Part shown: positions 6,813-60,957 of the stretch, in pieces
How positions within the stretch are numbered: position 1 is the stretch's first letter
Layout: every line of letters begins with the position of its first letter
Assembly (NCBI RefSeq): GCF_900113955.1
Contig: NZ_FORH01000009.1
Location: forward strand, 1-64,000
Direction of reading: 5' to 3'
Length of the DNA stretch: 64,000 bases
From: Celeribacter neptunius
Lineage (GTDB): Bacteria; Pseudomonadota; Alphaproteobacteria; Rhodobacterales; Rhodobacteraceae
Notes under the pieces: generated by a model
Told to the model about the DNA's origin: nothing
The model's input: only the letters and a program-made list of their open reading frames with translations
The model's database searches: none
Position numbers and translations under genes: made by a program

Positions 6813-6838
6813 GAGGCCCCGCTTTGGCGGGGTCTTTG
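6813..6838 (+). terminator. Rho-independent terminator after the IalB-like gene
   Basis: Stem CCCCGC / GCGGGG around TTTG (6817-6832), extendable through G-T and A-T pairs on both sides, followed by TCTTT. Confidence 0.7.
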
Positions 6839-6918
6839 CATATCCGGCCAAATCCCTTCCATAACGCTCGAGAATCCGTTATGAGCGCCGCTTAATCACC
6901 ATATTGAAGAGACCCGCC

Positions 6919-38987: not shown

Positions 38988-41900
38988 ATGGGTTACTCTG
39001 CGTCTCTCAGCGATCTGAGCTCTGTTCTGTCCTCTGAAAAGTTCAGCGATGAGGCGGTGGTTCTGCACCGGTTGCTGACCGAAACCGCTTTGCCCCTGTC
39101 TTTGCGCAATCGCATTTCCGATCGGGCCGCCGATTATGTGCGACGCATCCGCAAGGACTCTGCGCCGACACTGATGGAATATTTCCTCGCCGAATACGGG
39201 CTGTCGACCCGCGAAGGCGTGGCGCTGATGTGTCTCGCCGAAGCGATGCTGCGGGTGCCGGATCGCGAGACCATCGATGATCTGATCGAGGACAAGGTCG
39301 CGCCTTCGGACTGGGGCCAGCACATGGGGCATTCGTCCTCGACCATGGTCAATGCTTCGACCTGGGCCTTGATGCTGACGGGCCGGGTGCTGGACGATGA
39401 GCAGCCGGGCATGGCGGGAACGCTGCGCGGGTTGGTCAAACGTCTGGGCGAGCCGGTGATCCGCGCCGCCGTGTCCCGCGCGATGAAGGAAATGGGGCAG
39501 CAATTCGTGCTCGGTCAGACGATCAAAGCGGCGATGTCCCGGGCCAAGGGCCAGGAGGCCAAGGGCTACACATATAGCTATGACATGCTGGGCGAGGCGG
39601 CGATGACCCGCAAGGATGCGGAGCATTATGCAAGGGCCTACTCTGAGGCGATGGTTGAGATCGCCAAGGGCTGCACCAAAGACTCGGTGGCCGAGAACCC
39701 GGGGATTTCCGTGAAACTCTCCGCCCTGCATCCGCGCTACGAGGTGGCGAAAGAAGCCCGTGTCATGGACGAGCTGGTGCCGGTTCTGCGCGATCTGGCG
39801 CGACAGGCGCGTGCCGCCAATATGGGCTTCAACATCGATGCCGAGGAACAGGCGCGGCTGACGCTGTCGCTCAAGGTGATCCGCGCGGTCCTGGCCGATG
39901 AGGAATTGGCTGGCTGGGACGGGTTCGGCGTGGTGGTGCAGGCCTATGGCAAACGCGCCGGTCATGTCATCGACTGGCTCTATCAAACGGCCGAGGTGCT
40001 GGACCGCCGTCTGATGGTGCGGCTGGTGAAAGGCGCCTATTGGGACACGGAAATGAAACTCGCGCAGGTCGAGGGTCATCCGGATTTTCCGCTTTTCACC
40101 TCCAAGACCGCCACCGATGTCAGCTATATCGCCAATGCGAAAAAGCTTATCCGCTACAGCGACCGGATCTATCCGCAATTCGCCACCCATAACGCCCATA
40201 CGGTTGCCGCCGTGTTGGAATTGGCCGGCGACACGCAGTTCGAGTTCCAGCGCCTGCACGGCATGGGCGAGCGTCTGCATGACATCGTCCTGAAAGAAGA
40301 GGGCAGCCGTTGCCGCATCTATGCGCCGGTGGGCGCGCATCGCGATCTTCTGGCCTATCTTGTGCGGCGCCTGTTGGAAAACGGTGCCAACTCCTCCTTC
40401 GTCAATCAGATCGTCGACGAGGAGGTCAGCCCCGAGGAAATCGCCGGCGATCCGTTCGACATGCTGCCGGGGGCCATGGCCCCTGCCGGGCTGGTGCCAC
40501 CCGCCACGCTGTTCGGAGAAAGCCGCCGCAATTCCGAAGGCTATGACCTGAGCGATGACAAGACGCTCGCCCGGATCGAGAACGGGCGCAAGAGCCTTGC
40601 ACCCCTGCAAGCCACACCGCTCACGGTGGGTGAAGCGACGGGCGGTGCCGTGGACCTGCGCAACCCCGCCACAGGTGAGGTTATCGGCTCGGTGGTTCAG
40701 GCCGATCAGGACTGTGTCGCCCGGGCGATGTCCGATGCTGCGATCTGGGACGCGCCGGTGACGGAACGCGCCGCCATTCTGCGCAAGGCCGCGGATCTCT
40801 ACGAGCGCGATTTCGGCGTGATCTTTGCGCTTCTGGCGCGCGAGGCGGGCAAGACCCAGCTCGACGCCGTCGGGGAATTGCGCGAGGCGGTGGATTTCCT
40901 GCGCTATTATGCGGGGGAGGCGGAGCGCCGTCCCGACGCCCTGCCGCTCGGGCGGGTAACGGCCATTTCGCCGTGGAATTTCCCGCTCGCCATTTTCACC
41001 GGCCAGATCGCCGCCGCGCTGGCGATGGGCAATGCGGTTCTGGCGAAACCCGCCGAACAGACTCCGCTCATTGCCGCGCATGCGGTGGCGCTCCTGCACG
41101 AGGCCGGTGTGCCGCGGAGCGCCTTGCAGCTTCTGCCCGGCGATGGCCCGACCGTAGGTGCGGCGCTCACCTCTGATCCGCGGATCGATGGCGTTGTTTT
41201 CACCGGTTCGACCGAGACGGCCAAGCGCATTCAGCGCGCCATGGCGAAAAACCTCACCCCCGGCGCGCCGCTGATCGCAGAGACCGGCGGGCTCAATGCA
41301 ATGATTGTCGACAGCACCGCCCTGCCGGAGCAAGCCGTACGTGACATTGTCGCCTCTGCTTTCCAATCGGCGGGTCAGCGCTGTTCGGCGCTGCGCTGCC
41401 TCTATGTCCAGGAAGATATCGCGCCTGCGCTGATCGAGATGATCAAGGGCGCGATGGACGAACTTGCGGTCGGTGACCCCTGGGAGCTTGCCACGGATGT
41501 CGGTCCGGTGATCGATCGGGAGGCCAAGACGCAGATTGACGCCTATGTCGCCGGGCGCAGCGCTCAGGTGCTCCACCGTCTCAAGGCGCCGAATGCTGGC
41601 ACATTCGTCGCCCCGACCCTGATCGAGGTCGCCGGGATCGAGGAGCTGGAACGCGAGATCTTCGGGCCGGTGCTGCATGTCGCCACGTACAAGGCGCGCG
41701 ATCTCGACAAGGTGATCGATGCGATTAACGCGACGGGGTATGGGCTGACCTTCGGGCTGCACACGCGGATCGATGACCGGGTGCAACAGGTCTGCGATCG
41801 GCTGCATGTCGGCAATCTCTATGTCAACCGCAACCAGATCGGCGCCATTGTCGGCTCGCAACCGTTCGGTGGTGAGGGACTCTCGGGCACTGGGCCGAAA

Positions 41901-42434
41901 GCCGGCGGGCCGTGCTATCTCGACCGGTTTGCAACGCCGCAGGGGCCGCAAGTGGCCGGAACTTGGGAGGCCCCCATGGATGCCGCAGCGATCCAGCGCG
42001 CGATCAACGCGGTGACGGTGCCGACGGAGGCCCTGTCCTCCGAACAGCTTCCCGGCCCGACCGGCGAGGCCAATACGCTTTCGACCCATGTGCGGCCGCC
42101 TTTCCTCTGTCTCGGGCCGGGGCTTGATGCCACCCGCGCGCAGGCCGAGGCGGTCGAGGCGCTGGGCGGTGTCGCGGTCCGGGCCGAGGGGCTTTTGCCG
42201 AGCCATGCGCTCAAGACCGTCACCGGATTCGGCGGTGCGATCTGGTGGGGCGGGGCGGATCATCCGAACACGCGGGCCTATGCCACGGCGCTGGCGCAGC
42301 GTCTGGGGCCGATCCTGCCGTTTCTCACGGCGCTGCCCGATGCGGCACATGTCCTGCATGAACGCCATCTCTGCGTCGATACCACCGCCGCGGGCGGCAA
42401 TGCGGCGCTTTTGTCTGGTGACGGGCCGGTCTGA
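38988..42434 (+). CDS. putA: Bifunctional proline dehydrogenase / L-glutamate-gamma-semialdehyde dehydrogenase
   Basis: Oxidises proline to glutamate in two steps on one chain; 1,148 residues. The FAD-dependent proline dehydrogenase domain (about 170-470) shows SYDMLGEAAMT, VRLVKGAYWDTEMK and PQFATHNAHT. The aldehyde dehydrogenase domain (about 540-990) shows ISPWNFPLAIF, FTGSTETAK, AETGGLN (Glu) and the catalytic Cys in SAGQRCSALR (about C800). There is no N-terminal ribbon-helix-helix domain, unlike E. coli PutA, so regulation falls to the adjacent PutR. A short C-terminal extension (about 1000-1148) resembles the substrate-channel-sealing domain of long PutAs. Confidence 0.96.
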   Translation: MGYSASLSDLSSVLSSEKFSDEAVVLHRLLTETALPLSLRNRISDRAADYVRRIRKDSAPTLMEYFLAEYGLSTREGVALMCLAEAMLRVPDRETIDDLIEDKVAPSDWGQHMGHSSSTMVNASTWALMLTGRVLDDEQPGMAGTLRGLVKRLGEPVIRAAVSRAMKEMGQQFVLGQTIKAAMSRAKGQEAKGYTYSYDMLGEAAMTRKDAEHYARAYSEAMVEIAKGCTKDSVAENPGISVKLSALHPRYEVAKEARVMDELVPVLRDLARQARAANMGFNIDAEEQARLTLSLKVIRAVLADEELAGWDGFGVVVQAYGKRAGHVIDWLYQTAEVLDRRLMVRLVKGAYWDTEMKLAQVEGHPDFPLFTSKTATDVSYIANAKKLIRYSDRIYPQFATHNAHTVAAVLELAGDTQFEFQRLHGMGERLHDIVLKEEGSRCRIYAPVGAHRDLLAYLVRRLLENGANSSFVNQIVDEEVSPEEIAGDPFDMLPGAMAPAGLVPPATLFGESRRNSEGYDLSDDKTLARIENGRKSLAPLQATPLTVGEATGGAVDLRNPATGEVIGSVVQADQDCVARAMSDAAIWDAPVTERAAILRKAADLYERDFGVIFALLAREAGKTQLDAVGELREAVDFLRYYAGEAERRPDALPLGRVTAISPWNFPLAIFTGQIAAALAMGNAVLAKPAEQTPLIAAHAVALLHEAGVPRSALQLLPGDGPTVGAALTSDPRIDGVVFTGSTETAKRIQRAMAKNLTPGAPLIAETGGLNAMIVDSTALPEQAVRDIVASAFQSAGQRCSALRCLYVQEDIAPALIEMIKGAMDELAVGDPWELATDVGPVIDREAKTQIDAYVAGRSAQVLHRLKAPNAGTFVAPTLIEVAGIEELEREIFGPVLHVATYKARDLDKVIDAINATGYGLTFGLHTRIDDRVQQVCDRLHVGNLYVNRNQIGAIVGSQPFGGEGLSGTGPKAGGPCYLDRFATPQGPQVAGTWEAPMDAAAIQRAINAVTVPTEALSSEQLPGPTGEANTLSTHVRPPFLCLGPGLDATRAQAEAVEALGGVAVRAEGLLPSHALKTVTGFGGAIWWGGADHPNTRAYATALAQRLGPILPFLTALPDAAHVLHERHLCVDTTAAGGNAALLSGDGPV

Positions 42435-42978: not shown

Positions 42979-43003
42979 CGCACAGACAATTTTGGGGACA
43001 CTC

Positions 43004-44545
43004 ATGAAACGCACTCTCAAACGCGCGGGTTTGATGCCATTGCTCTTTGCAGCCACGGCAACACCCGCATTCGCACAATCCATCGATGAAAAAATCAATT
43101 CGGTTTTCGCCAGCGCCACGGGCTGGTTCGTCAACCTGATCTTCAGCCCGTTTCCCGGCACCAGCTTTCCCTGGATCGTCGCCTGGCTCGTCGTCGCGGC
43201 GACGATTTTCACCCTCTATTTCGGGTTCATTCAGTTCCGCGCCTTTCCGCATTCGATCGCGCTGGTCAAAGGCGATTATTCCGATCCGGATGATGCCGGT
43301 GAGGTGAGCCATTTCCAGGCGCTCGCCACGGCTTTGTCCGGCACCGTCGGGCTCGGTAATATCGCTGGTGTCGCGGTGGCGGTCGGCATCGGTGGCCCGG
43401 GGGCGACCTTCTGGATGATCCTTGCAGGGCTGATGGGGATGGCCTCGAAATTCACCGAATGCACGCTCGCCGTGAAATACCGCAATGAGCTGGACGACGG
43501 CACCGTCTCCGGCGGGCCGATGTATTACATGACCAAGGGTTTCAAGGAACGTGGCCTGCCCGGTGGCCGGGTGCTCGCCGTGCTGTTTTCGATCTTCACC
43601 ATTCTGGGCTCTTTCGGTGGCGGCAACATGTTCCAGGCCAATCAGGCTCATGCGCAGATCTCCGGCGTGATCGGCGATTATCCGGGGGTGATCACCGGGG
43701 TGATCTTTGCCGCGCTGGTCTTTGCGGTGATCGTCGGCGGGCTGAAATCCATCGCCCAGGTGACCGAAAAGATCGTGCCGATCATGGGCGTGCTCTATGT
43801 CGGCACCGCGCTGATCATCCTCTTGATGAATTTCAACATGATCGGCTGGGCTTTCGGACAGATCTTTGCCGGCGCCTTTACCGGGCTCGGGGTCGCGGGC
43901 GGCATGGCCGGGGCGCTGATCCAGGGCTTCAAACGCGCCGCCTTTTCCAACGAGGCCGGTGTCGGTTCCGCCGCCATCGCGCATTCCGCCGTGCGCACAA
44001 AGGAGCCCTCGACCGAAGGCTTCGTGTCGCTTCTGGAACCGTTCATCGACACGGTGGTGATCTGTACCATGACCGCTCTGGTGATCATCATCACCGGTCA
44101 ACTCGTCGCCGACCCGGAAACCGGTCGCTACATCCTGACCGAGGGCGGCACGATCCAGACGCTCGATGGGTCCTCAGGTGTGGCCCTGACATCGGCGGCG
44201 TTTTCCTCGAGCTTCGGCTGGTTCAAATACATTCTGGTGATCGCCGTGGTGATGTTCGCCTTCTCGACCATGATCAGCTGGTCCTATTACGGGCTCAAGG
44301 CCTGGACCTTTCTCTTTGGTGAGAGCAAGGGCGCGGCCCTGAGCTTCAAGGTGATCTTTTGCCTCTTCGTCGTCGTCGGCGCGGCGGCGAGCCTCGGCCC
44401 GGTGATCGATTTCTCGGATGCGGCGATCTTTGCCATGGCCGTGGTCAATATCATCGCGCTCTACGCCCTGATGCCGATCGTGAAACGCGAGGTCTGGTCC
44501 TATCTCGACCGTCTGAAAACCGGCGAGATCAAGAAGTTCAACTGA
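43004..44545 (+). CDS. Alanine/glycine:cation symporter (AGCS family)
   Basis: Sodium-coupled inner-membrane symporter of 513 residues with about eleven transmembrane segments. Family signs are VSHFQALATALSGTVGLGNIAGVAVAVGIGGPGATFWM, where the GNIAG loop is the sodium/amino-acid site, and KRAAFSNEAGVGSAAIAHSA. The N-terminus looks like a signal peptide (AATATPAFAQ), seen in a subset of the family. The ATG at 43004 after TTGGGGAC is preferred over an upstream TTG. It may supply alanine or glycine; it is downstream of putA but beyond a terminator. Confidence 0.93.
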   Translation: MKRTLKRAGLMPLLFAATATPAFAQSIDEKINSVFASATGWFVNLIFSPFPGTSFPWIVAWLVVAATIFTLYFGFIQFRAFPHSIALVKGDYSDPDDAGEVSHFQALATALSGTVGLGNIAGVAVAVGIGGPGATFWMILAGLMGMASKFTECTLAVKYRNELDDGTVSGGPMYYMTKGFKERGLPGGRVLAVLFSIFTILGSFGGGNMFQANQAHAQISGVIGDYPGVITGVIFAALVFAVIVGGLKSIAQVTEKIVPIMGVLYVGTALIILLMNFNMIGWAFGQIFAGAFTGLGVAGGMAGALIQGFKRAAFSNEAGVGSAAIAHSAVRTKEPSTEGFVSLLEPFIDTVVICTMTALVIIITGQLVADPETGRYILTEGGTIQTLDGSSGVALTSAAFSSSFGWFKYILVIAVVMFAFSTMISWSYYGLKAWTFLFGESKGAALSFKVIFCLFVVVGAAASLGPVIDFSDAAIFAMAVVNIIALYALMPIVKREVWSYLDRLKTGEIKKFN

Positions 44546-44564
44546 TCTCTCACGGGGAAAGAAC

Positions 44565-44603
44565 AAGCCGTGCCGCGTCTCTGCGTGGCACGGCTTTGTT
44601 GTT
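44565..44603 (+). terminator. Rho-independent terminator of usp-AGCS
   Basis: Ten-base stem AAGCCGTGCC / GGCACGGCTT (44565-44574 and 44587-44596), 12-nt loop, then TGTTGTTT. Confidence 0.85.
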
Positions 44604-44740
44604 TGCTCTGGTTAAAAAATAGACGTTCGGCTCGAAATTAGGCCCATGCCGGGGCAACCGGTCGTTTTGCTCGTGATGCACCTTGGGTGGGCTTATAGGC
44701 TCAAAGGCAATACAGACCGGGAAAGGGCGATTTCAGGGCC

Positions 44741-47700
44741 ATGGCGATCTATGCATCCATCCATCACGTCACCCATTACAAATACGACCGCAACGTCGAC
44801 TTGGGGCCTCAAATCATCCGTCTCAGGCCCGCGCCGCATTCCCGCACACGGGTGATTTCGCATTCCTTGAAAGTCACGCCGGCAGAGCATTTCGTCAATC
44901 ATCAGCAAGACCCCTATGGCAACTGGCAATCGCGTTTCGTGTTTCCGGAACCGGTGCGCGAATTCAAGATCGAGGTCGATCTGGTCGCCGATATGACGGT
45001 CTACAACCCGTTCGATTTCTTCGTCGAAGAAAGTGCCGAACATTGGCCGTTCGACTATCCGGATGATCTCAAGGACGATCTGGTGATCTATCGGACGCCG
45101 GAACCCGAAGGCCCGCTTCTGGCGCAATTCATGGGTTCGATCGACTTTCCACAAGATGGGGAAAAGGAGCGCACGGTTGATTTTCTCGTCGGATTGAACG
45201 CGAAGATCTCCGACTATGTTGATTACACGATCCGGATGGAGCCGGGGGTTCAGACGCCGGACGAGACGCTGTCGTGCAAATCCGGGTCGTGTCGCGACTC
45301 CTCGTGGTTGCTGGTGCAGGTGCTGCGGCATCTGGGCTTTGCCGCGCGGTTCGTCTCCGGCTATCTCATTCAGCTCAAACCCGATCTCGAGGCGCTGGAC
45401 GGGCCGTCTGGCACGGATCATGATTTCACCGATCTGCACGCCTGGTGCGAGGTCTTTCTGCCCGGGGCCGGCTGGGTCGGGCTCGACCCGACCTCGGGGC
45501 TTTTGACCGGGGAGAGCCATATCCCGCTTTCCGCCACGCCGCATTACCGCAACGCCGCACCGATCGCCGGGGGCTTTGCCGCGGTCGGCACGCCCGAGGT
45601 CACGTTTGACTTTGACATGCAGGTCAAGCGCGTCGCCGAACATCCGCGGATCACCATGCCCTTCTCGGAAGAAAGCTGGGAGCGGTTGAACACTCTGGGC
45701 CACAAGGTCGATGAGGCGCTTGAAAAAGGCGATGTGCGCCTGACCATGGGCGGTGAACCGACCTTCGTGTCGATCGATGACTTCGAGAGCGACGAATGGA
45801 ACACGGCAGCGGTCGGGCCGCAAAAGCGGGCGCTGGCGGATACGCTCATTCGCCGGTTGCAGGGCCGTTTCGCCCCCGGTGGCTTCCTGCATTACGGTCA
45901 GGGGAAATGGTATCCGGGCGAGAGCTTGCCGCGCTGGACCTTCTCGCTTTACTGGCGTCGCGATGGCAAACCGGTGTGGAAGAACCCGGAGCTGATCGCC
46001 CGGGAAGACACGCCGAGCCCGGCGGGTGCCGAGGACGCGGGGGCGTTCATGACCCGCTTTGCCGCCAATCTAGGCGTCGATCCGGTCTGTGCCCAGCCGG
46101 CCTATGAGGATCCGGGCGAATGGATTTTGAAGGAATCGCTCCTGCCGGAGAATGTCAGCCCGGAAAACAGCAAGCTGAAGAACCCGGAGGATCGCGCCCG
46201 CTATGCCCGGGTGTTCGAGCGCGGGTTGACCGAACCCTCTGGCTACATCCTGCCGATCCAGCGCTGGCAGTCGAAGGCCGGGTCGACCTGGCTGTCCGAG
46301 GTTTGGAAGACCCGGCGCGGGCATCTGTTCCTCATTCCCGGAGACAGCCCGGTGGGCTTCCGTCTGCCACTGGGGGCGCTGCCGCATATTCCACCCGCCT
46401 CCTACCCCTATTCCTATCCGTCCGATCCGATGCAGGATCATGCGCCGCTGCCGGATTTCCATGCGGAGGTTTCCGAGCGTCGCAAACGGATCGAGGCCGA
46501 GATCGCCAAGCTTGCCGCAGAGGAAGAGGCCGCGGCAGCGCGGGAAGCCAAGGAGAAATCCGAGCTTCTGCCGGAAACCTCCGAAGGCCACAGCCAGCCG
46601 GTCTCTGAAGCGCAGCACGACGACACCGTGCGTCAGGCCCTGATTGCGCAGGGTGTCGATCCCGAAACCAGTCAGGTCCGGACCGCGATCGCGATCGAGC
46701 CGCGCGACGGACGCCTGTGCCTGTTCATGCCGCCATGCGAGACGCTCGAGGACTATCTCGATCTGCTGACCACGGCGGAGGAGACCGCCGCTGAGCTGGG
46801 TCTGCCGATCCATGTCGAAGGCTATTCCCCGCCCGAGGACCCGCGGCTCAATGTCATCCGTGTGGCCCCCGATCCCGGCGTGATCGAGGTGAACATCCAT
46901 CCGGCCCACAGCTGGGATGATTGCGTCGCCACCACGGAGGCGATCTATGAGGAAGCCCGCCAGTCGCGGCTCGGTGCCGATAAATTCATGATCGACGGGC
47001 GCCACACCGGCACCGGCGGTGGCAACCATGTTGTGGTCGGCGGCGCGACCCCTCCGGACAGCCCTTTCCTGCGGCGTCCGGATTTGCTCAAGTCGCTCAT
47101 TCTGATCTGGCAGCGCCATCCGTCGCTGTCCTATCTGTTCTCGGGGCTGTTCATCGGGCCGACTTCTCAGGCGCCGCGCATCGATGAGGCGCGCCATGAC
47201 ACGCTCTACGAGTTGGAAATCGCGCTGTCGCAGATCAAGCCTCCCTCGGAGGCCGCCGTGCCGCCCGCCTGGTTGGTGGACCGGCTCCTGCGCAACATGC
47301 TCACGGATGTCACCGGCAACACCCACCGGGCGGAGATCTGTATCGACAAGCTGTTTTCGCCGGACGGGCCGACCGGGCGTCTGGGTCTCGTGGAATTCCG
47401 CGGCTTCGAGATGCCGCCGGACCCGCGCATGTCTCTGGCGCAACAGCTCCTTCTGCGCGCCATCATCGCCCGCTGTTGGAATGCGCCGGTCGAGGGCAAG
47501 CCGGTGCGTTGGGGCACGGTGCTGCACGACCGGTTCATGCTGCCGCATTACCTCTGGGAAGATCTGCTGTCGCTGCTGGCCGATCTGAAACACCACGGGT
47601 TCGACATGGACCCCGAATGGTTCAAGGCGCAGGCCGAGTTCCGCTTCCCCTTCTGTGGACAGATCGAAGCGGAAGGCGTGCATCTCGAGGTGCGTCAGGC

Positions 47701-48196
47701 TCTGGAACCCTGGCATGTGCTGGGCGAGACCGGGGCGATTGGCGGCACGGTGCGCTATACGGATAGCTCGGTCGAGCGGCTTCAGGTCAAGATGACGACC
47801 CTGCATCAGGATCGCTATCGGGTCATGTGCAACCGCCGGCCGGTGCCGCTTGCGCGTACCCAGATCTCGGGCGTTTCGGTCGCTGGCGTGCGGTTCAAGG
47901 CCTGGCAGCCGCCCGAGGCGCTGCATCCGGTGCTCAAGGTCAACGCGCCGCTGCATTTCGACATCTATGACGACTGGACCGGACGGGCCATCGCGGGCTG
48001 TACCTATCATGTCGCGCATCCGGGCGGGCGCAATTACGACACTTTCCCGGTCAATGGCAACGAGGCGGAGGCGCGGCGTCTGGCGCGGTTCGAACCCTAT
48101 GGTCATACGCCGGGAAGCTATACGCCCGCGACAGAGATGCCGCATCCGGAGTTTCCCTTGACGCTTGACCTCCGGCGGCCCATTGGGCTCTTGTGA
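44741..48196 (+). CDS. Transglutaminase-like protein fused to DUF2126 putative amidoligase
   Basis: Very large cytosolic-looking protein of 1,151 residues with no signal peptide. The N-terminal part (about 1-90) is a bacterial transglutaminase N domain (HHVTHYKYDRNVDLGPQIIRLRP). The catalytic domain has the triad C184 (SGSCRDSSWL), H233 (DLHAW) and D249 (GLDPTSG). The rest (about 300-1140) is DUF2126, classed as a glutamine-synthetase-like COOH-NH2 ligase. Visible are LTMGGEPTFVSID, MIDGRHTGTGGGNHVVVGG and FRGFEMPPDPRMSLAQQLL, with Glu/His/Arg-rich patches suited to metal and ATP binding. A charged coiled coil lies near 585-615. It is first of three genes that jointly define the system; the substrate peptide is unknown. 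Confidence 0.88.
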   Translation: MAIYASIHHVTHYKYDRNVDLGPQIIRLRPAPHSRTRVISHSLKVTPAEHFVNHQQDPYGNWQSRFVFPEPVREFKIEVDLVADMTVYNPFDFFVEESAEHWPFDYPDDLKDDLVIYRTPEPEGPLLAQFMGSIDFPQDGEKERTVDFLVGLNAKISDYVDYTIRMEPGVQTPDETLSCKSGSCRDSSWLLVQVLRHLGFAARFVSGYLIQLKPDLEALDGPSGTDHDFTDLHAWCEVFLPGAGWVGLDPTSGLLTGESHIPLSATPHYRNAAPIAGGFAAVGTPEVTFDFDMQVKRVAEHPRITMPFSEESWERLNTLGHKVDEALEKGDVRLTMGGEPTFVSIDDFESDEWNTAAVGPQKRALADTLIRRLQGRFAPGGFLHYGQGKWYPGESLPRWTFSLYWRRDGKPVWKNPELIAREDTPSPAGAEDAGAFMTRFAANLGVDPVCAQPAYEDPGEWILKESLLPENVSPENSKLKNPEDRARYARVFERGLTEPSGYILPIQRWQSKAGSTWLSEVWKTRRGHLFLIPGDSPVGFRLPLGALPHIPPASYPYSYPSDPMQDHAPLPDFHAEVSERRKRIEAEIAKLAAEEEAAAAREAKEKSELLPETSEGHSQPVSEAQHDDTVRQALIAQGVDPETSQVRTAIAIEPRDGRLCLFMPPCETLEDYLDLLTTAEETAAELGLPIHVEGYSPPEDPRLNVIRVAPDPGVIEVNIHPAHSWDDCVATTEAIYEEARQSRLGADKFMIDGRHTGTGGGNHVVVGGATPPDSPFLRRPDLLKSLILIWQRHPSLSYLFSGLFIGPTSQAPRIDEARHDTLYELEIALSQIKPPSEAAVPPAWLVDRLLRNMLTDVTGNTHRAEICIDKLFSPDGPTGRLGLVEFRGFEMPPDPRMSLAQQLLLRAIIARCWNAPVEGKPVRWGTVLHDRFMLPHYLWEDLLSLLADLKHHGFDMDPEWFKAQAEFRFPFCGQIEAEGVHLEVRQALEPWHVLGETGAIGGTVRYTDSSVERLQVKMTTLHQDRYRVMCNRRPVPLARTQISGVSVAGVRFKAWQPPEALHPVLKVNAPLHFDIYDDWTGRAIAGCTYHVAHPGGRNYDTFPVNGNEAEARRLARFEPYGHTPGSYTPATEMPHPEFPLTLDLRRPIGLL

Positions 48197-48224
48197 AACA
48201 CCTGAGCAACGTAGCCGACCTGAG

Positions 48225-50648
48225 ATGACGCAAAGCCCGACAGGGGTCTCCGCACAAAGGGATCTGTTTGCCGCCTACCGGCAAACCCCCGGCGTGGCCG
48301 ATGAGCTGTTTGATGCCTCGGGCCAGATGCGGCCCGTCTGGCGCCGTTTCGTGGAACGGTTTTCCCGGCTGTCGCCCGAGGATATTCAGGCGCGGTTTGA
48401 GCGCGGCAATCAATATCTGCGCGATGCCGGTGTGTTCTACCGGCAATATTCCAATGATCCGCTGACCGAGCGCGACTGGCCGCTCTCGCATATCCCGGTG
48501 ATCCTGCACGAGGAGGAATGGGAGCACATCTGCGAAGGGCTCACACAGCGCGCGGATCTCTTGGAACGGGTGATGGCCGATCTCTACGGGCCGGGGCAAC
48601 TGGTCTCGGACGGGCATTTGCCGGCTGAACTCATTGCCCGCTCGCCGCAATGGCTCCGTCCGATGGTCGGGGTCCAGCCGCGCGGCGGCCATTATCTGCA
48701 TTTCATCGCTTTCGAGATCGGGCGCTCGCCCGACGGATCGTGGTTCGTGCTGGGCGACCGGACACAGGCGCCCTCGGGTGCAGGGTTTGCGCTGGAGAAC
48801 CGGATGGCAACCGGGCGCATTTTCCCGGAACGTTTCCCGCGGGCGCATATCCACAGGCTCGCCGGCTTCTTCAGTGCTTTTCGCGACGCGATGGAGGATC
48901 TCGCCTCTCCATCTTTCAAACACCCGCGGGTGAGCGGTATCCTGACCCCGGGCCCCTCGAATGACACCTATTACGAGCACACCTATATCGCCCGCTATCT
49001 CGGGATGATGCTGCTCGAGGGTGAGGATATCGTGGTCGAGAATGGCGAGGCCATGGTGCGCACCATCGAGGGGCTGCAGCCCTTGGGCATGCTCTGGCGG
49101 CGGATCGATGCCAGTTTCGCCGATCCGCTGGAATTCAACCCGCATTCCCAGATCGGCACACCGGGCCTGATGGAAGCGGTGCGGACCGGGCATCTGGCGA
49201 TGGCCAATGCGCTTGGGTCCGGGGTTCTGGAAATGCGGGCGATGATGGCCTTCATGCCGCGGATTAGCGAGGTGCTGACCGGGGCATCTTTGCGCCTTCC
49301 GAATATCGCCACATGGTGGTGCGGCGGTGCCGCCGAGCGCGCCTATGTGCATGACAATGCCCAGAATATGCTGATCAGCCCGGCGGATGCGGTGAACCTG
49401 CCCTTCGATCTCGGCGCGACCACGGCGCTGGGCGGAGAGTTTCGCGGCACCGCCATGGGTTCGATCGCCGATTGGCTCGATCGCGAAGGCGACCGGCTGG
49501 TCGGTCAGGAGGCGGTGACCCTCTCGACCACACCGGCGTGGCAGGAGGATGGCGCGGGCGGTGGTTCGGTCGTGCCCAAGCCGATGACGGTGCGGGTGTT
49601 CGCGGCGCGAACGTCGAGCGGATGGAAATTCATGAAAGGCGGTTACGCCCGGATCGGACGCTCGGGCGATTCAACCGCACTGGCGATGCAGCGCGGCGGG
49701 TCCGTGGCCGATGTCTGGGTGGTCTCCGACCGGCCTCTGACACGGCATGCTACCCAAAGCGACAGGGATGAATCCTATCTGCGGGTCAGCCCGGGAACCT
49801 TGCCGGCACGTGCCGCCGACAATCTGTTCTGGCTCGGGCGCTATGTCGAACGGTTCGAGGATGCGGCACGTCTGGTCCGGGCCTATCATCTGCGGCTGGC
49901 GGCGACCGACAATCGTGGCGATGCGCGGCTCAAGTCCGTGCGCGCCTATCTCGCCGGTTTCGGCATCAATCTCGAGGAGCCTCTGCCCCATGCTTTGATC
50001 GCCCGGATCGTGGCGGCGCGCGGCTGTGCCATGCGGGTGCGTGACCGGTTTTCGACCGACGGGTTGCTGGCACTGGGCGATCTGTTGAAAACCGCGCGCC
50101 GGATGACCAAGACGGTGCAGCCCGGCGACGATTGCGCCCGCGCCATGTCGGTTCTGGTGCGCAAGATCGCCGGGATCAGCGGGCTTGTGCATGAGAACAT
50201 GTACCGTTCGAGCGGCTGGCGGTTCCTGAGTTTTGGCCGGGCGCTCGAGCGCGCCGATGCGGTGGCGGCCTTCTTGGCCGAATTTGCCGATCCCGGCGCC
50301 CCGGATGGCTCGCTCGATCTGGCGGTCGAGGTCGGGGATTCGATCATCACCCATCAGCGGCGCTACCGGGTTGAGACCAGCCGCAATGCGGTGGTCGATC
50401 TTCTGGCGCTCGATGCCGACAATCCGCGCGCGCTTCTGTTCCAGATCCGGGAGCTGCGCAGACATGCCGAAGCTCTGCCGCATGCCCATGAGCATGGCCG
50501 GCCCTCGGCGCTGTTGCGGGCGATCCTGCCGCTCGAGGCGGGGCTGGCCTGTGCCGCGCCGCAGGACGTGAGCTCGCAGCGTCTGATCGAGATCCGCGCG
50601 GAACTTGCGGGGATTTCAGATCTCCTGTCCTCGATCTATCTGAGGTGA
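48225..50648 (+). CDS. Circularly permuted ATP-grasp ligase fused to alpha-E domain
   Basis: Fusion of 807 residues. The first part (about 60-470) is a circularly permuted type 2 ATP-grasp enzyme, with YLRDAGVFYRQY, LGDRTQAPSGAGFALENRM, TPGPSNDTYYEHTYIARYLG and LPNIATWWCGG. ATP-grasp enzymes form amide bonds through acyl-phosphate intermediates. The second part (about 520-805) is the all-helical alpha-E domain (DUF403), beginning ARAADNLFWLGRYVERFEDAARL and ending with SSIYLR; it is of unknown function and nearly always linked to these ATP-grasps. In many genomes the two are separate genes. It starts 28 bases after the DUF2126 gene and ends 3 bases before the second transglutaminase. Confidence 0.88.
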   Translation: MTQSPTGVSAQRDLFAAYRQTPGVADELFDASGQMRPVWRRFVERFSRLSPEDIQARFERGNQYLRDAGVFYRQYSNDPLTERDWPLSHIPVILHEEEWEHICEGLTQRADLLERVMADLYGPGQLVSDGHLPAELIARSPQWLRPMVGVQPRGGHYLHFIAFEIGRSPDGSWFVLGDRTQAPSGAGFALENRMATGRIFPERFPRAHIHRLAGFFSAFRDAMEDLASPSFKHPRVSGILTPGPSNDTYYEHTYIARYLGMMLLEGEDIVVENGEAMVRTIEGLQPLGMLWRRIDASFADPLEFNPHSQIGTPGLMEAVRTGHLAMANALGSGVLEMRAMMAFMPRISEVLTGASLRLPNIATWWCGGAAERAYVHDNAQNMLISPADAVNLPFDLGATTALGGEFRGTAMGSIADWLDREGDRLVGQEAVTLSTTPAWQEDGAGGGSVVPKPMTVRVFAARTSSGWKFMKGGYARIGRSGDSTALAMQRGGSVADVWVVSDRPLTRHATQSDRDESYLRVSPGTLPARAADNLFWLGRYVERFEDAARLVRAYHLRLAATDNRGDARLKSVRAYLAGFGINLEEPLPHALIARIVAARGCAMRVRDRFSTDGLLALGDLLKTARRMTKTVQPGDDCARAMSVLVRKIAGISGLVHENMYRSSGWRFLSFGRALERADAVAAFLAEFADPGAPDGSLDLAVEVGDSIITHQRRYRVETSRNAVVDLLALDADNPRALLFQIRELRRHAEALPHAHEHGRPSALLRAILPLEAGLACAAPQDVSSQRLIEIRAELAGISDLLSSIYLR

Positions 50649-50651
50649 GCG

Positions 50652-51557
50652 ATGCTGTATGATCTGCGCCTGACCATCGAATACCGCTATGATGCGTCGT
50701 CGGATCGGACGCGCAACATTTTGCGGCTTTTGCCCGGTGATGTCGCCGGCGTGCAGCGGTTGGTGCAGCGGCGTCTGACCATCGAACCGCAGCCGCAGGA
50801 ACGGCGCGACGGGCGGGATTTCTTCGGCAATGAGACCTGTATGGTGGCCTGGCATCGCCCCATCGATGCGCTGATGTTGCATCTTTCGGCGCGAATCGAA
50901 CGGTTCGAACCGGCGCCGCTGCTGGATCTGTCGCCGCCGCTGGAGGAGCTGCATCAGGAGTTGATTCAGATGGCCTCGATCGCGCCCGGCTCGCCGCATC
51001 ATTTTGTGGCGGCCTCGCCACGCGTCAGGCTGTCCCCGAAGATCACCGACTATGGCTGGGACTGTCTTGAAACGACGGCAGAGCCGGGTGTGACGGTGCT
51101 CAAAGCGGTCGAGACCCTGGGCCGGGCGCTTCATCGCGACATGAGCTTCGATCCGGAAGCCACCGATGTGGATACCAGCCCCGAGGAGGCGTTCGAGAAC
51201 CGCCACGGGGTCTGTCAGGATTTCGCCCATGTGATGATCGCAGCGCTCAGAGGCATCGGCATTCCGGCGGGCTATGTCTCCGGCTTTCTGCGGACCTTTC
51301 CGCCGCCGGGTCAGCCACGTCTCGAAGGGGCGGATGCGATGCATGCCTGGGTGCGTGCCTGGGCCGGCAAACAGCTGGGCTGGGTTGAGTTCGACCCGAC
51401 GAACAATCAATTCGCCGGGTCGGATTACATCACGCTCGGGCACGGGCGCGATTATGGCGATGTCGCACCGGTGCGTGGTGCGCTGCGCTCCTCGGGCGGG
51501 CAGGACAGCGAACAGGCGGTCGATGTCCTGCCGCTGGAGATCAGCGCGCCGCGCTGA
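50652..51557 (+). CDS. Transglutaminase-like cysteine protease/amidase
   Basis: Cytosolic-looking protein of 301 residues: an N-terminal beta domain (LYDLRLTIEYRYDASSDRTRNILRLLP) followed by the papain-like transglutaminase core with C188 (NRHGVCQDFAH), H231 (DAMHAW) and D248 (VEFDPTNN), a complete triad. Together with the ATP-grasp/alpha-E and DUF2126 proteins it forms a tight three-gene operon. In known genomic surveys such transglutaminases are predicted to cleave or transfer amide bonds made by the ATP-grasp, for example removing a peptide tag. GAGGTGAG precedes the ATG. Confidence 0.9.
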   Translation: MLYDLRLTIEYRYDASSDRTRNILRLLPGDVAGVQRLVQRRLTIEPQPQERRDGRDFFGNETCMVAWHRPIDALMLHLSARIERFEPAPLLDLSPPLEELHQELIQMASIAPGSPHHFVAASPRVRLSPKITDYGWDCLETTAEPGVTVLKAVETLGRALHRDMSFDPEATDVDTSPEEAFENRHGVCQDFAHVMIAALRGIGIPAGYVSGFLRTFPPPGQPRLEGADAMHAWVRAWAGKQLGWVEFDPTNNQFAGSDYITLGHGRDYGDVAPVRGALRSSGGQDSEQAVDVLPLEISAPR

Positions 51558-55596: not shown

Positions 55597-55724
55597 AGGG
55601 CGGAGAATGGCTGAACAAAACCCGAGAAACTTGACCTGAGCCAAGGTCAGCCCCCACCATGGACGTATAGCGTAGACCCGGACAGCGCCCGTGGTGGGTG
55701 CACAATCATCGGGAGGCACTCGCC

Positions 55725-57641
55725 ATGAAGACCGTCACAATCCTTGGACCTTCGCAATCCGGCAAATCGTCATTGGCCGCGGCTCTGGCCGGGCTGGATA
55801 CGGGCAAGCCCCGCTCCCTGAGCCTGTTCGGCGAGACCGCGGTGACCATGTTCAACTATCTCGATCAGGACTGGAGCCTCCTCGATTGTCCCGGTGGCGC
55901 CGAAGGGCTGGCACAATCCGGCTCGGCGCTGGCGGTGAGCGATGCCGCTGTGCTCTGCGTACCGGCCGAGGCCGATGCCGCGGTCCTGGCCGCGCCTTAC
56001 CTGCGGCTTCTGGAAGCGTCCGGCGTGCCGACGCTTCTGTTCATCAACAAGGTGGATGCCGCCAGCGACCGCACCGCCGACATTGCCGCGGCGCTTCAGA
56101 CCTATTCTGCCCATGGCATCGTGCTCCGTGAAATTCCGATCCGCGAAAATGGCGAAATCACCGGTATGGTCGATCTGATCTCCGAACGCGCCTGGGCCTT
56201 CCATGAGGGCGAACGCTCGTCTCTGGTTGAGATGCCCGACTCTGCGCGGGCGCGTGAGGAAGAGGCGCGTGCCGAGTTGTTGGAGCATCTCGCGGATTTC
56301 GACGATCGTTTGCTCGAAGAGCTGATCGAAGATCAGAAGCCGATGAGCGACGAGCTCTATGATGTCGCCACCCGGGTGTTGCAGCATCACGATCTGATCC
56401 CGGCTTTTCTCGGCTCTGCCTCCCATGGCAACGGGCTGACCCGCCTGATGAAAAGCCTGCGTCATGAGGTGCCCGGTGTCGCGGCGCTGACCGAACGGTT
56501 CGGCGAGACCCCGGTGGCCGTGGGCATATTCGCCGATCAGGTCAAACATCTCGGCAAGACCGTGTTGATCCGCGCCGTGGGGGCCGCGCTCAAACCCGGG
56601 GCCGAGCTGATGGGCGGCGCGATCGGGTCGCTCGTCGATATCGACACCAAGACGGCCGTGACCGAACTTGCCTTGGGTGAAATTGCGCTCACTGTGAAAA
56701 CCGATCACCTTGCCTTGCGGGCCCCGATTTACGGGGCAGGGGGGGCCATCGACACGCCCGACTGGGCGGTGCCGCACAAGCCGAAGAACCGCGTTCTCGT
56801 GACGCCCGAGAGCGAACGCGATGAGGCGCGGCTTTCGGTGGCGCTGGGCAAATTGGCAGATATCGATCCGGGCCTCGCGGTCGAACAGGATCCGCAGAGC
56901 GGCAAGGCGATCCTTGCCACGCAAGGGGCGCTGCATCAGCGCCATGTGATCGAGAAGCTTGCCGATGTGTTCGGCGTCGCGGTGGAGACCCAGCATATTC
57001 CGCCGGCGCTGCGCGAGACCATCACCAAGCCGGGCGGGACGCATTACCGTCATCGCAAGCAATCCGGCGGCGCCGGGCAGTTTGCCGATGTGGTGATCGA
57101 AGTGACCCCGCTCGAGCGCGGTGCCGGTTTTGTCTTCGAGGAGATCGTCAAGGGCGGCGCGGTGCCGCGCAACTATATGTCGGCGGTCGAGGCCGGTGTG
57201 CGGGATGCGCTCGAGGCCGGACCCAATGGCCTGCCGGTGGTGGATCTCAAGGTCACGCTCACAGATGGCAAACACCACGCGGTGGACAGTTCCGACTATG
57301 CCTTCCGCGTCGCTGCGAAATCTGCCGTGCGTGAGGCTTTGAATGAGTGCAAACCGGTGGTGCTGCAGCCGATCGACAAGATCGCGGTCCATGTGCCGAG
57401 CATCTATTCCGGCGGGCTGATGCCGCTGATCACCGGGCTCAAGGGGCAGGTTCTGGGCTTCGAGGCCAATCCGGATGCCTCCGGTTGGGACGTGTTCAAC
57501 GCGCTCTTGCCGGCCACCGCCGAAGACGAGTTATTCCAGGCCTTGGGCAGCGCAACGCGCGGCACCGCCTGGTATCAGGCGGAGCTTGATCACTACGAAG
57601 AGACCTATGAACCGGTGAGCCAGCTCGCGGCTGTCGACTGA
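55725..57641 (+). CDS. EF-G-like protein with degenerate GTPase site
   Basis: Translation-factor-like protein of 638 residues, shorter than EF-G (about 700). The G domain keeps a P-loop (GPSQSGKS, 8-15) and NKVD, but G3 is DCPGG (54-58) instead of DTPGH, losing the catalytic His. The P-loop to G3 distance is about 40 residues and no RGIT-type switch I is present. Domains II, III, IV (KPGGTHYRHRKQSGGAGQFADV, DGKHHAVDSSDYAF) and V (IYSGGLMPLITGLKGQV) remain. It resembles the FusA2/EF-G-like paralogues found beside normal fusA in many bacteria; the role is uncertain. GGGAGG precedes the ATG. Confidence 0.85.
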   Translation: MKTVTILGPSQSGKSSLAAALAGLDTGKPRSLSLFGETAVTMFNYLDQDWSLLDCPGGAEGLAQSGSALAVSDAAVLCVPAEADAAVLAAPYLRLLEASGVPTLLFINKVDAASDRTADIAAALQTYSAHGIVLREIPIRENGEITGMVDLISERAWAFHEGERSSLVEMPDSARAREEEARAELLEHLADFDDRLLEELIEDQKPMSDELYDVATRVLQHHDLIPAFLGSASHGNGLTRLMKSLRHEVPGVAALTERFGETPVAVGIFADQVKHLGKTVLIRAVGAALKPGAELMGGAIGSLVDIDTKTAVTELALGEIALTVKTDHLALRAPIYGAGGAIDTPDWAVPHKPKNRVLVTPESERDEARLSVALGKLADIDPGLAVEQDPQSGKAILATQGALHQRHVIEKLADVFGVAVETQHIPPALRETITKPGGTHYRHRKQSGGAGQFADVVIEVTPLERGAGFVFEEIVKGGAVPRNYMSAVEAGVRDALEAGPNGLPVVDLKVTLTDGKHHAVDSSDYAFRVAAKSAVREALNECKPVVLQPIDKIAVHVPSIYSGGLMPLITGLKGQVLGFEANPDASGWDVFNALLPATAEDELFQALGSATRGTAWYQAELDHYEETYEPVSQLAAVD

Positions 57642-57708: not shown

Positions 57709-57839
57709 CTCTGTCCAGGGTTGGTCTCGCACGAGAGTTTTGCGGCGACGGAATGCGTGGGCTCCCGCGTATCACCCTCATAGTCGCCGCTCTCGGATGG
57801 ACCCGACATATTGCGGACCGGGTCATTGAAAGGTCTGAT

Positions 57840-59009
57840 ATGAAACTCTTATACCGTTTTCTGATTGTCGCTTTGATCGCTGTCGCCGGCTATGTCGGCT
57901 GGGCCCAGTTTCGCGCGGATGGCGAGGCGGCCCCGCCGCAGACTGCCCAGGTGACGCGCGGCACGGTGCAGGAAACGGTTCTGGCCTCCGGTGTGATCGA
58001 AGCCTCGCAGCTCGTCAGCGTCGGCGCCCGCACCTCGGGTCAGATCGAAACCCTGGCGGTCGGGCTTGGCGACGAGGTCGCAGCCGGCGATCTCATCGCC
58101 CAGATCGACAGCGAAGATCAGAAGAACGACGTGCTGCAGGCCGAGGCCGATCTCGCCAATATCGAGGCGCAGATCGCGGCCAAGAACGCGTCTTTGAAAA
58201 AGGCGCAATTGTCGCTCGAACGTCTGACCCGGTTGAGCGCGCAAAACTACGCCTCGCAGGAAGATGTCGAAAGCGCCACCGCCGATCTTCAGGTCTATGA
58301 GGCCGAGTTGGAGGCCCTGGGGGCGCAGAAATCCTCCGCCGAAGTCACCGTCTCCACCGCCAAGATCGCGCTCGAACGCACCCGGGTGACCGCGCCGATC
58401 GATGGCACGGTTGTGGCCGTGGTGGTCGATGAGGGCCAGACGGTGAATGCCAACACCACCTCACCGACCATCGTGAAAATCGCCAATCTCGACAAGATGA
58501 TCGTGAAGGCTGAGATTTCGGAGGCCGATGTGGTGCATGTCGCTGCCGGTCAGAGCGTCAGCTTCACCATTCTGGGCGAGCCGGACAATCCGTTTTCCGC
58601 CACCGTGCGCGATGTCGAACCGGCCCCCTCGGAGATCGAGGACAGCGATACGATCAGCACGGATGCGGCGATCTATTACAATGGCCGCCTCGAGGTCGCG
58701 AACCCGGAGCACCTGTTGCGGATCGGCATGACCACACAGGTGTCTATCGTGCTGGACGAGGCGCGGGACGTGTTGACGGTGCCGTCATCGGCGCTGAGCG
58801 CGGGGTCGGACGGGCAATACATGGTCTTGCTTTATGAGGCCGATACCGGGGCGAGCCATCCGCAGCCGGTCGAGGTCGGGCTCAACAACAAGGTGACGGC
58901 CGTGATCATCTCCGGCCTGTCCGAGGGCGATCAGGTCGTGACCGGCGCCAGCCTGTCTTCTGCCTCGTCCTCGAGCAATCAACGCATGGGCCCTCCGGGG
59001 ATGTTCTAA
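57840..59009 (+). CDS. macA: MacA-type periplasmic adaptor of an ABC efflux pump
   Basis: Membrane-fusion protein of 389 residues anchored by an N-terminal transmembrane helix (about 5-22). Order: barrel-sandwich/lipoyl halves (GVIEASQLVSVGARTSGQI, about 60-90 and TVVAVVVDEGQTVNA), an alpha-helical coiled-coil hairpin (about 100-185), a beta-barrel and a membrane-proximal domain. AAAGG precedes the ATG at 57840; the longer frame from 57753 lacks one. macB follows after one base, so it supplies the adaptor for that pump; an outer-membrane TolC is needed from elsewhere. Confidence 0.92.
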   Translation: MKLLYRFLIVALIAVAGYVGWAQFRADGEAAPPQTAQVTRGTVQETVLASGVIEASQLVSVGARTSGQIETLAVGLGDEVAAGDLIAQIDSEDQKNDVLQAEADLANIEAQIAAKNASLKKAQLSLERLTRLSAQNYASQEDVESATADLQVYEAELEALGAQKSSAEVTVSTAKIALERTRVTAPIDGTVVAVVVDEGQTVNANTTSPTIVKIANLDKMIVKAEISEADVVHVAAGQSVSFTILGEPDNPFSATVRDVEPAPSEIEDSDTISTDAAIYYNGRLEVANPEHLLRIGMTTQVSIVLDEARDVLTVPSSALSAGSDGQYMVLLYEADTGASHPQPVEVGLNNKVTAVIISGLSEGDQVVTGASLSSASSSSNQRMGPPGMF

Positions 59010-59010
59010 G

Positions 59011-60957
59011 ATGACCGATCCTCTCATTTCCGCCCGCGGCATCAGCCGCAGTTTCCAAGCCGGTGACGAGACCATCACCGTGTTGCGCGATGTCGATATC
59101 GATATCTACCCCGGCGAAATGGTCGCCATCATCGGCGCCTCCGGCTCCGGCAAATCGACCCTGATGAACATTCTCGGCTGTCTCGATCGGGCCAGTTCGG
59201 GGACCTATTCCTTCGGGGCGCGCGATGTCAGCGATCTCGGACACGATGAATTGGCGCAATTGCGGCGTGAGCATTTCGGCTTCATCTTTCAGCGCTATCA
59301 GCTGCTGTCCGATCTCGATGCGGTCGGAAATGTCGAAGTGCCGGCGATCTATGCCGGGGCGGCGCGCGGCGCAAGGCGCGCCCATGCGCAGGAGCTTTTG
59401 ACCCAGCTCGGTCTCGACACCCGTTTCGATCATCGCCCCACCGAATTGTCCGGTGGTCAGCAACAGCGGGTCTCCGTCGCCCGCGCCCTGATGAATGGCG
59501 GCGAGGTCATTCTCGCCGATGAACCCACCGGTGCGCTCGACAGCAAGAGCGGCAAGGATCTCATTGCGCTGCTGCGCGATCTCAATGCCAAGGGGCACAC
59601 GATCGTCATGGTCACCCATGACCCGAATGTCGCCGAACATGCCCATCGGATCATCGAGATCAGCGACGGGCGGATCGTTTCCGACACGCGCAAGACCCCG
59701 GAAAAGGATCAATCCGTGCAACCCGAACGTCCGTTCAAGGACAGCCATGGTGCCGGCGCCATGCTGCGGCGTTTGTCCGAGGCCTTCAGCATTTCCCTCA
59801 AAGCCATGCTGGCGCATCGGACGCGGTCGTTTCTGACCATGCTCGGGATTATCATCGGCATCGCTTCCGTGGTGCTGGTGGTGGCGCTCGGCAATGGCAC
59901 CCAGGAAAAGGTGTTGGAGAATATCAGCTCGCTCGGCACCAATACGATCACCGTGCGGGCCGGGTCCGGCTTCGGATCACGCGATCAGGGGCGGATTGAA
60001 ACGCTGATGCCGTCGGATGCCGATGCGCTGGCGCTGATGGATCTGGCGGACAGTGTCTCGCCCGCCGTGTCCTCGGCAGCCTCCGTGCTCTACCGCAACA
60101 CCGAGGCCTCGGCGACGATCGGCGGGGTCTCCGGCGACTATTTTTCGGTGCATGCTTATGAGACGGTTTCCGGCACGGTGTTCACCGAGACGGATGTCGC
60201 CGATTACGCCCAGGTGGGGGTGATCGATGAGGACACGCGCGATACATTCTTTGAGGATGGCACCGATCCTCTGGGTCAGGTGCTGATCCTCGGCCATGTG
60301 CCGGTGCGGGTGATCGGTGTCGTGCGCTCTACCGGTGCCACCTTCGGGCCCTCGTCGCTCAATGTCTGGGTGCCCTATACCACCTCGATGGCGCGTATCT
60401 CCGGTCAGAACTATCTCGACAGTATCGGCGTGCGGGTCCGAGACGATTACGACATGGATCAGGCCGAGACAGAGATTTCCGCGCTCTTGACCGCACGCCA
60501 TGGCACCGAGGATTTCTTCCTGACAAATACCGATACGATCCGCGAAACCATTACCTCGACCACCGAGACGTTGACCTATCTGGTGGCGATGATCGCGGTG
60601 ATCTCGCTGGTGGTCGGTGGTATCGGCGTGATGAATATCATGCTCGTTTCGGTGACCGAGCGGACCAAGGAAATCGGGGTGCGTATCGCCATCGGGGCGC
60701 GGCGCTCCGATATCGTCAGCCAGTTCCTGATCGAGGCGGTGATGGTCTGTCTCGTCGGTGGCGTGCTGGGCATCGCGGCGGCGTTGTCGGGCGGTTTCCT
60801 GATCGAGGAATTCGCCAGCGATGTCCGGTTGAGTTTCTCGAGTACGGCGGTCGTCGTGGCCTTCCTGTCCTCGACGCTGATCGGCGTTACCTTCGGTTAC
60901 CTGCCGGCGCGCAATGCCGCCCGGCTCGATCCGGTGGTAGCGCTGAGCCGCGAGTAA
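59011..60957 (+). CDS. macB: MacB-type ABC transporter, fused ATPase and FtsX-like permease
   Basis: Mechanotransmission ABC exporter of 648 residues, active as a dimer. N-terminal ATPase: Walker A GASGSGKST (about 44-52), signature LSGGQQQRVSVARAL, Walker B VILADEPTGALD. The C-terminal half has one membrane helix (about 275-295), a large periplasmic MacB core domain (about 300-510) and three terminal helices with the FtsX pattern (VGGIGVMNIMLVSVTERTKEIGVRIAIGARR). It exports macrolides, lipopeptides or toxins in other species; the substrate here is unknown. Confidence 0.93.
   Translation: MTDPLISARGISRSFQAGDETITVLRDVDIDIYPGEMVAIIGASGSGKSTLMNILGCLDRASSGTYSFGARDVSDLGHDELAQLRREHFGFIFQRYQLLSDLDAVGNVEVPAIYAGAARGARRAHAQELLTQLGLDTRFDHRPTELSGGQQQRVSVARALMNGGEVILADEPTGALDSKSGKDLIALLRDLNAKGHTIVMVTHDPNVAEHAHRIIEISDGRIVSDTRKTPEKDQSVQPERPFKDSHGAGAMLRRLSEAFSISLKAMLAHRTRSFLTMLGIIIGIASVVLVVALGNGTQEKVLENISSLGTNTITVRAGSGFGSRDQGRIETLMPSDADALALMDLADSVSPAVSSAASVLYRNTEASATIGGVSGDYFSVHAYETVSGTVFTETDVADYAQVGVIDEDTRDTFFEDGTDPLGQVLILGHVPVRVIGVVRSTGATFGPSSLNVWVPYTTSMARISGQNYLDSIGVRVRDDYDMDQAETEISALLTARHGTEDFFLTNTDTIRETITSTTETLTYLVAMIAVISLVVGGIGVMNIMLVSVTERTKEIGVRIAIGARRSDIVSQFLIEAVMVCLVGGVLGIAAALSGGFLIEEFASDVRLSFSSTAVVVAFLSSTLIGVTFGYLPARNAARLDPVVALSRE

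Follow-up and report, generated by a model that had tools for sequence, protein, structure and literature searches.

The analysed window comprises 64,000 nucleotides of Celeribacter neptunius (contig NZ_FORH01000009.1, positions 1 to 64,000 of the forward strand) and contains an operon of three intact genes on the same strand, separated by intergenic gaps of 28 and 3 bases according to the coordinates of the open reading frames (ORFs) (Table 1). The first gene encodes a transglutaminase fused to DUF2126, the second a circularly permuted ATP-grasp fused to an Alpha-E domain, and the third a second transglutaminase-like protein. The Pfam scores of the operon genes are far above chance, with 1322 bits for DUF2126 (cut-off 27), 426 bits for CP_ATPgrasp_2 and 172 bits for Alpha-E; CP_ATPgrasp_1 was also matched. 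The start of gene 2 was taken as the ATG at 48225, and the mechanical ORF opens at TTG 48165. An initial annotation of the window, made from the sequence alone, had described the same genes, domains and gaps, and both the ORFs and the Pfam searches confirm its description.

Table 1 Features of the operon and its upstream border
Feature	Position	Strand	Basis
Gene 1, transglutaminase and DUF2126 fusion, 1151 residues	44741..48196	+	Pfam Bact_transglu_N, Transglut_core, DUF2126
DUF2126, likely glutamine-synthetase-like ligase domain, residues 286-1145 of gene 1	45596..48175	+	
Gene 2, circularly permuted ATP-grasp and Alpha-E fusion, 807 residues	48225..50648	+	Pfam
ATP-grasp domain of gene 2, residues 91-477, predicted non-catalytic	48495..49655	+	
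Codons G177-D178-R179, where intact ATP-grasps have E-D-N	48753..48761	+	Alignment
Alpha-E domain of gene 2, residues 526-806	49800..50642	+	Pfam, 172 bits
Gene 3, second transglutaminase-like protein, 301 residues, triad C188/H231/D248	50652..51557	+	Pfam Transglut_core, Bact_transglu_N
Terminator-like hairpin downstream of the symporter gene	44565..44596	+	Pattern match alone; 7 sites in the region against 5.8 expected from shuffles

Ligase and transglutaminase domains

The ATP-grasp domain of gene 2 is predicted to have a fold like those of glutathione synthetases and of the structure 3n6x (model of the gene 2 product: predicted local distance difference test, pLDDT, 88.4; predicted template modelling score, pTM, 0.85). 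Structure 3n6x has an E-x-N motif, a GGYG loop and the aspartate of a D-x-R motif. In the alignment of the window protein, G-D-R replaces E-D-N, the GGYG loop is missing and threonine replaces the aspartate. E159 with N161, GGYG or D427 was kept in none of the 94 fused proteins, whereas all 24 separate ATP-grasps retained them. As judged from the alignment, the active site seems to be lost from the fused ATP-grasp, which would thus not be a second ligase. The initial annotation had counted two amide-bond-forming domains in the operon, a count that does not hold for an ATP-grasp lacking residues kept by every separate ATP-grasp checked. It had also named the loss of ATP-binding residues on alignment as a finding that would overturn its proposal; such a loss was found in the fused ATP-grasp, and it concerns that domain only. 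In the adjoining Alpha-E domain, the arginines of the ER motifs (R539, R543, R672 and R676) are invariant, and E542 and E675 are kept in at least 90% of 38 sequences.

The structure model of the gene 1 product (pLDDT 77.4, pTM 0.73) has a glutamine-synthetase-like fold in DUF2126, which bears out the earlier assignment of this domain. Because of this predicted fold and its invariant polar residues, DUF2126 is likely the ATP-dependent ligase domain of the operon. Both transglutaminase-like domains carry a Cys-His-Asp triad, whose residues had been identified correctly. The triad of gene 1, C184/H233/D249, is invariant in all 84 transglutaminase-DUF2126 sequences, which come from the window, 80 genome loci and three plasmid loci. 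The triad of gene 3 is kept in 97 of the 99 aligned free-standing transglutaminases; the exceptions are a gap in L040, where the match ends at the contig end, and L145, in which the third residue is a cysteine.

The initial annotation presented the fusion of ATP-grasp and Alpha-E as a peculiarity. Among the best 80 of 592 DUF2126 loci, a fused gene follows DUF2126 in the same orientation, no more than 0.7 kb downstream, in 74, and the fusion is the normal state in this subfamily. Of the six loci without a fused gene, L083 and L084 end at or near DUF2126, and L043, L074, L075 and L091 have none within 10 kb.

A further module on another contig

The genome contains one DUF2126 and two Alpha-E genes. 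Another contig (C17, L003:6620-10543) carries a four-gene run encoding an intact ATP-grasp, Alpha-E, a transglutaminase and a 243-residue proteasome-family protein, without DUF2126. The last of these (L003:9812-10543), the only Anbu match in the genome, is called Anbu by family and position. The window operon contains no proteasome-like Anbu gene of the kind that defines an Anbu-type operon. The initial annotation passed over this intact operon and its co-occurrence.

In a phylum sample of 299 genomes, Alpha-E is present in 156, DUF2126 in 84 and Anbu in 102. None of the DUF2126 genomes lacks Alpha-E (0 of 84), and two or more Alpha-E are found in 76 of these 84, compared with two in 11 of the 72 Alpha-E genomes without DUF2126. 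Fisher values for the co-occurrence take no account of kinship, and because the genomes are related they overstate the independence of the counts. Anbu is optional for DUF2126, because it is present in 51 of the 84 genomes. Among 61 relatives, 27 possess DUF2126, including 14 of the 19 other genomes of the genus. Two Alpha-E were detected in 23 of the 27 and one in the remaining four; the four single Alpha-E score like separate ones, which is confirmed by the loci for G017 and G034 and rests on the score for G027 and G060.

The best Alpha-E lies at most 15 kb from DUF2126 in 37 of the 84 genomes and in 36 of the 52 outside the class of the window, in a count for which the Alpha-E position is missing in two of the 84. 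A separate ATP-grasp stands beside DUF2126 in 18 of 24 loci, which were partly chosen for closeness and thus inform about order and not about a fair rate. Among the best 80 loci, the core module is within 10 kb of DUF2126 in that of Pseudooceanicola pacificus only (L037), where the two are back to back. In L196 (4790-13071), from the genus of the window, DUF2126 is located directly between Anbu and a divergent intact ATP-grasp/Alpha-E pair, and there is no fused gene. The last transglutaminase ORF of L196 shows the N-terminal domain alone in its frame.

Flanking genes and possible nitrogen regulation

The Na+:alanine symporter gene upstream (42992-44545) is separated from the operon by the terminator-like hairpin, after which the operon probably starts. 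Together with a PutA-like gene for a bifunctional proline dehydrogenase/aldehyde dehydrogenase (38988-42434, forward strand), which the symporter adjoins, and an AsnC-type regulator on the other strand, it forms an amino-acid-use neighbourhood. The 3' neighbour of the operon is a glutathione-S-transferase-like gene on the opposite strand, facing the operon. Further downstream, the forward strand encodes an elongation-factor-G-like protein of 647 residues (55698-57641; 743.6 bits to NCBIfam NF009379, cut-off 513), whose gene adjoins HlyD/MacB-type efflux genes at 57753-60957.

The neighbours of DUF2126 were surveyed by a crude grouping of ORFs longer than 100 residues near the 80 DUF2126 loci, the three plasmid loci and the window. 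This placed the three genes of the operon in groups of 67, 59 and 50 loci. ABC-transporter ATPases were the next most frequent (25 loci, three members scanned), and groups of 23 and 17 loci resemble, by their coordinates, overlapping frames of the operon. The other neighbours, assigned from one member each, were glycogen phosphorylase (14), aldehyde dehydrogenase (12), branching enzyme (12), a Tad/VWA protein (12) and LysR (9). The initial annotation had called for a search for conserved extra partners; near the surveyed loci, no partner of more than 100 residues looks dedicated, and the recurrent neighbours belong to common families. In Caballeronia (L144), a putative zinc-binding metallopeptidase gene (6814-7875, reverse strand) is positioned between an intact ATP-grasp/Alpha-E pair and DUF2126.

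Published work links related genes to nitrogen. In Burkholderia cenocepacia H111, the genes I35_5080-83, encoding ATP-grasp (DUF404/407), Alpha-E (DUF403), a transglutaminase and a large transglutaminase protein, are common targets of NtrC and sigma54 (PMC5491218; this paper and PMC2588565, PMC3597751, PMC5666114, PMC6376114, PMC11081392 and PMC12239564 are cited from excerpts). The Anbu-operon genes PP_2685-2688 of Pseudomonas putida are up under nitrogen limitation (PMC3325844; PMC7801951, in which PP_2685 is almost flat in the first listed strain) and are higher on nitrate than on ammonium (PMC8050072). In marine metagenomes, the domains correlate with urea metabolism domains (PMC3597751). 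By analogy, a shortage of nitrogen probably activates the system in C. neptunius as well.

Sites for the sigma54 consensus are not above chance in the whole window (22 versus 29 expected). Of the NtrC-like palindromes, 25 occur in the window (19.5 expected) and none in 44545-44740. At the Anbu locus of the same genome, both one-mismatch sigma54 matches are inside genes and none is upstream. The B. cenocepacia replicon L143, from a strain other than H111 and matched to the I35_5080-83 tags by domain order alone, has a one-mismatch sigma54-like site at 4383-4397, some 50-70 bases ahead of the probable start of the ATP-grasp gene, a start chosen by eye. The site fits the published NtrC control, and the sigma54-like matches in L143 are not above chance (two versus 1.4 expected).

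Proposed mechanism and known systems

A function can be proposed from the computed domains and triads, the lost residues, the predicted folds, gene order and co-occurrence, and from clustering in part of the genomes. On balance, we favour a two-part system for amide ligation in which the operon provides the accessory ligase module, with DUF2126 as the sole live ligase in the operon and the ATP-grasp half as a pseudo-ligase. We infer that DUF2126 would activate a carboxylate with ATP and join it to an amine. The fused ATP-grasp, with a glutathione-synthetase-like fold kept without the ATP and metal site, may together with Alpha-E form a subunit for binding, scaffolding or regulation. Both transglutaminase-like domains may hydrolyse or transfer the amide that has been made. 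The intact ATP-grasp/Alpha-E core module would act jointly with the operon, supplying or sharing the substrate, presumably under nitrogen control, and Anbu, where encoded, may degrade the product or the tagged protein. We put forward more tentatively that the fused protein is a conserved pseudo-ligase, deeply paralogous to the intact ATP-grasp/Alpha-E pair, that regulates the live ligases, DUF2126 and the separate ATP-grasp, or carries substrate for them. One nitrogen-starvation pathway would then comprise both ligases, one dead paralogue, a relative of the proteasome and two to three transglutaminases.

Several observations weigh against the accessory-module proposal. The glutamine synthetase match of DUF2126 is weak in the ranking of Foldseek itself (E 0.09 or worse), and the 15 DUF2126 positions kept in 84 of 84 sequences, chosen among invariant ones, are at most candidate ATP or metal residues of the glutamine synthetase superfamily. 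Fused proteins retain an acidic residue at position 146 (92 of 92) and R149 (90 of 92), and migrated residues could restore ATP-grasp activity. That E159, N161, K367 and GGYG are metal and ATP ligands is our assumption from glutathione and glutathionylspermidine synthetases. Fused protein and DUF2126 are not strictly paired, because each gene occurs without the other: DUF2126 lacks a fused gene also in L178, L196, L197 and L201, and one genome without a DUF2126 match (G048, L200 6830-10523) has the fused gene and the second transglutaminase. Anbu is absent from 33 of the 84 DUF2126 genomes, and the 195 bases that precede 44741 (44545-44740) contain no sigma54-like site. The relatedness of the sampled genomes counts here too. 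In the class of the window, the modules are neighbours in one of 32 genomes by the 15-kb count and in one of the 80 loci; because they are so seldom neighbours, we have slightly lowered our confidence in the proposal and in the one-pathway case.

High-scoring ligase-family matches of both domains and the glutathione synthetase fold of the fused ATP-grasp would suit a model in which DUF2126 and this ATP-grasp each make an amide bond, in succession. The loss of E159 with N161, GGYG or D427 from every fused protein, set against their retention in every separate ATP-grasp, makes sequential ligation quite improbable. Somewhat less improbable, and still unlikely, is a new enzyme, in which the fused protein would use a rebuilt pocket to bind a nucleotide or other phosphorylated ligand and would catalyse a different reaction. 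A new conserved motif, DRTQAPSG, occupies the former E-D-N site in 54 of 92 fused proteins, and R429 (92 of 92) is retained along with R149, but GGYG is found in none of the 92 and lysine at 367 in ten. To our knowledge, no activity has been described for a fused ATP-grasp-Alpha-E protein, which also counts against a new enzyme.

The product may be a small free peptide or a conjugate of an amino acid that serves to store or salvage nitrogen, without protein tagging, and its nitrogen would be recovered by the transglutaminases and Anbu. This is compatible with an accessory ligase module, and we regard it as possible rather than probable. It accords with the nitrogen response in two genera, with the correlation with urea metabolism in marine metagenomes and with the DUF2126 family being without a noted Pup-like partner in the excerpt of PMC2588565; against it, Anbu is proteasome-like and the cited literature, as excerpted, reports no product.

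The gene set is common, as the DUF2126 count in the phylum sample shows, and we know of no substrate assigned to the system. The cited excerpts name none either, in agreement with the initial annotation, whose interpretation is partly supported overall. The distinction between likely live and dead domains and the presence of a second module guide the choice of proteins for co-purification, the residues to test and nitrogen limitation as the condition for seeking the product.

The operon is a member of an already predicted system, and calling it undescribed was too strong. In 2009, Iyer, Abhiman, Burroughs and Aravind reportedly predicted a peptide-ligation system of DUF2126, circularly permuted ATP-grasp, Alpha-E, transglutaminase and Anbu. 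The same families form the same clusters here, whereas the modules lie on two contigs and the ATP-grasp on the DUF2126 side lacks its catalytic residues, an apparent difference from the predicted system. That prediction is cited in PMC5666114 and PMC6376114, and a paper of 2008 reported the fusion of transglutaminase and ligase (PMC2588565). The literature searched, the 2009 paper not included, yielded no account of a dead ATP-grasp or of the core/accessory relation, and the term DUF2126 occurs in no paper of that literature. In mycobacteria, Rv2569c is a transglutaminase gene near the DUF2126 gene Rv2566. Rv2569c has been reported as a serine protease and termed a YebA-superfamily member, in a paper whose main text is without the word transglutaminase (PMC11081392).

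The Anbu operons of P. putida (PP_2685-2688) and Yersinia bercovieri share the ATP-grasp, Alpha-E and transglutaminase families with the window operon (PMC5666114, PMC6376114). The ATP-grasp of the Y. bercovieri operon releases phosphate from ATP, and in the excerpt its Anbu showed no peptidase activity and no detected complex with operon proteins (PMC6376114). The Anbu operon of C. neptunius itself differs from the window operon in its intact ATP-grasp, separate Alpha-E, proteasome-like peptidase and lack of DUF2126. In the B. cenocepacia replicon L143, the genes run in the order ATP-grasp, Alpha-E, transglutaminase, transglutaminase-DUF2126, fused ATP-grasp-Alpha-E and transglutaminase, so that the modules are contiguous there and apart here. 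Glutathionylspermidine and glutathione synthetases and 3n6x share the ATP-grasp fold, but their active-site motif is absent from the checked fused proteins. The rloABC system of Pseudomonas aeruginosa likewise combines an ATP-grasp, an (inactive) transglutaminase and a peptidase, from different families: a retropepsin, a membrane-bound dead transglutaminase and an ATP-grasp 24% identical to RimK (PMC12239564).
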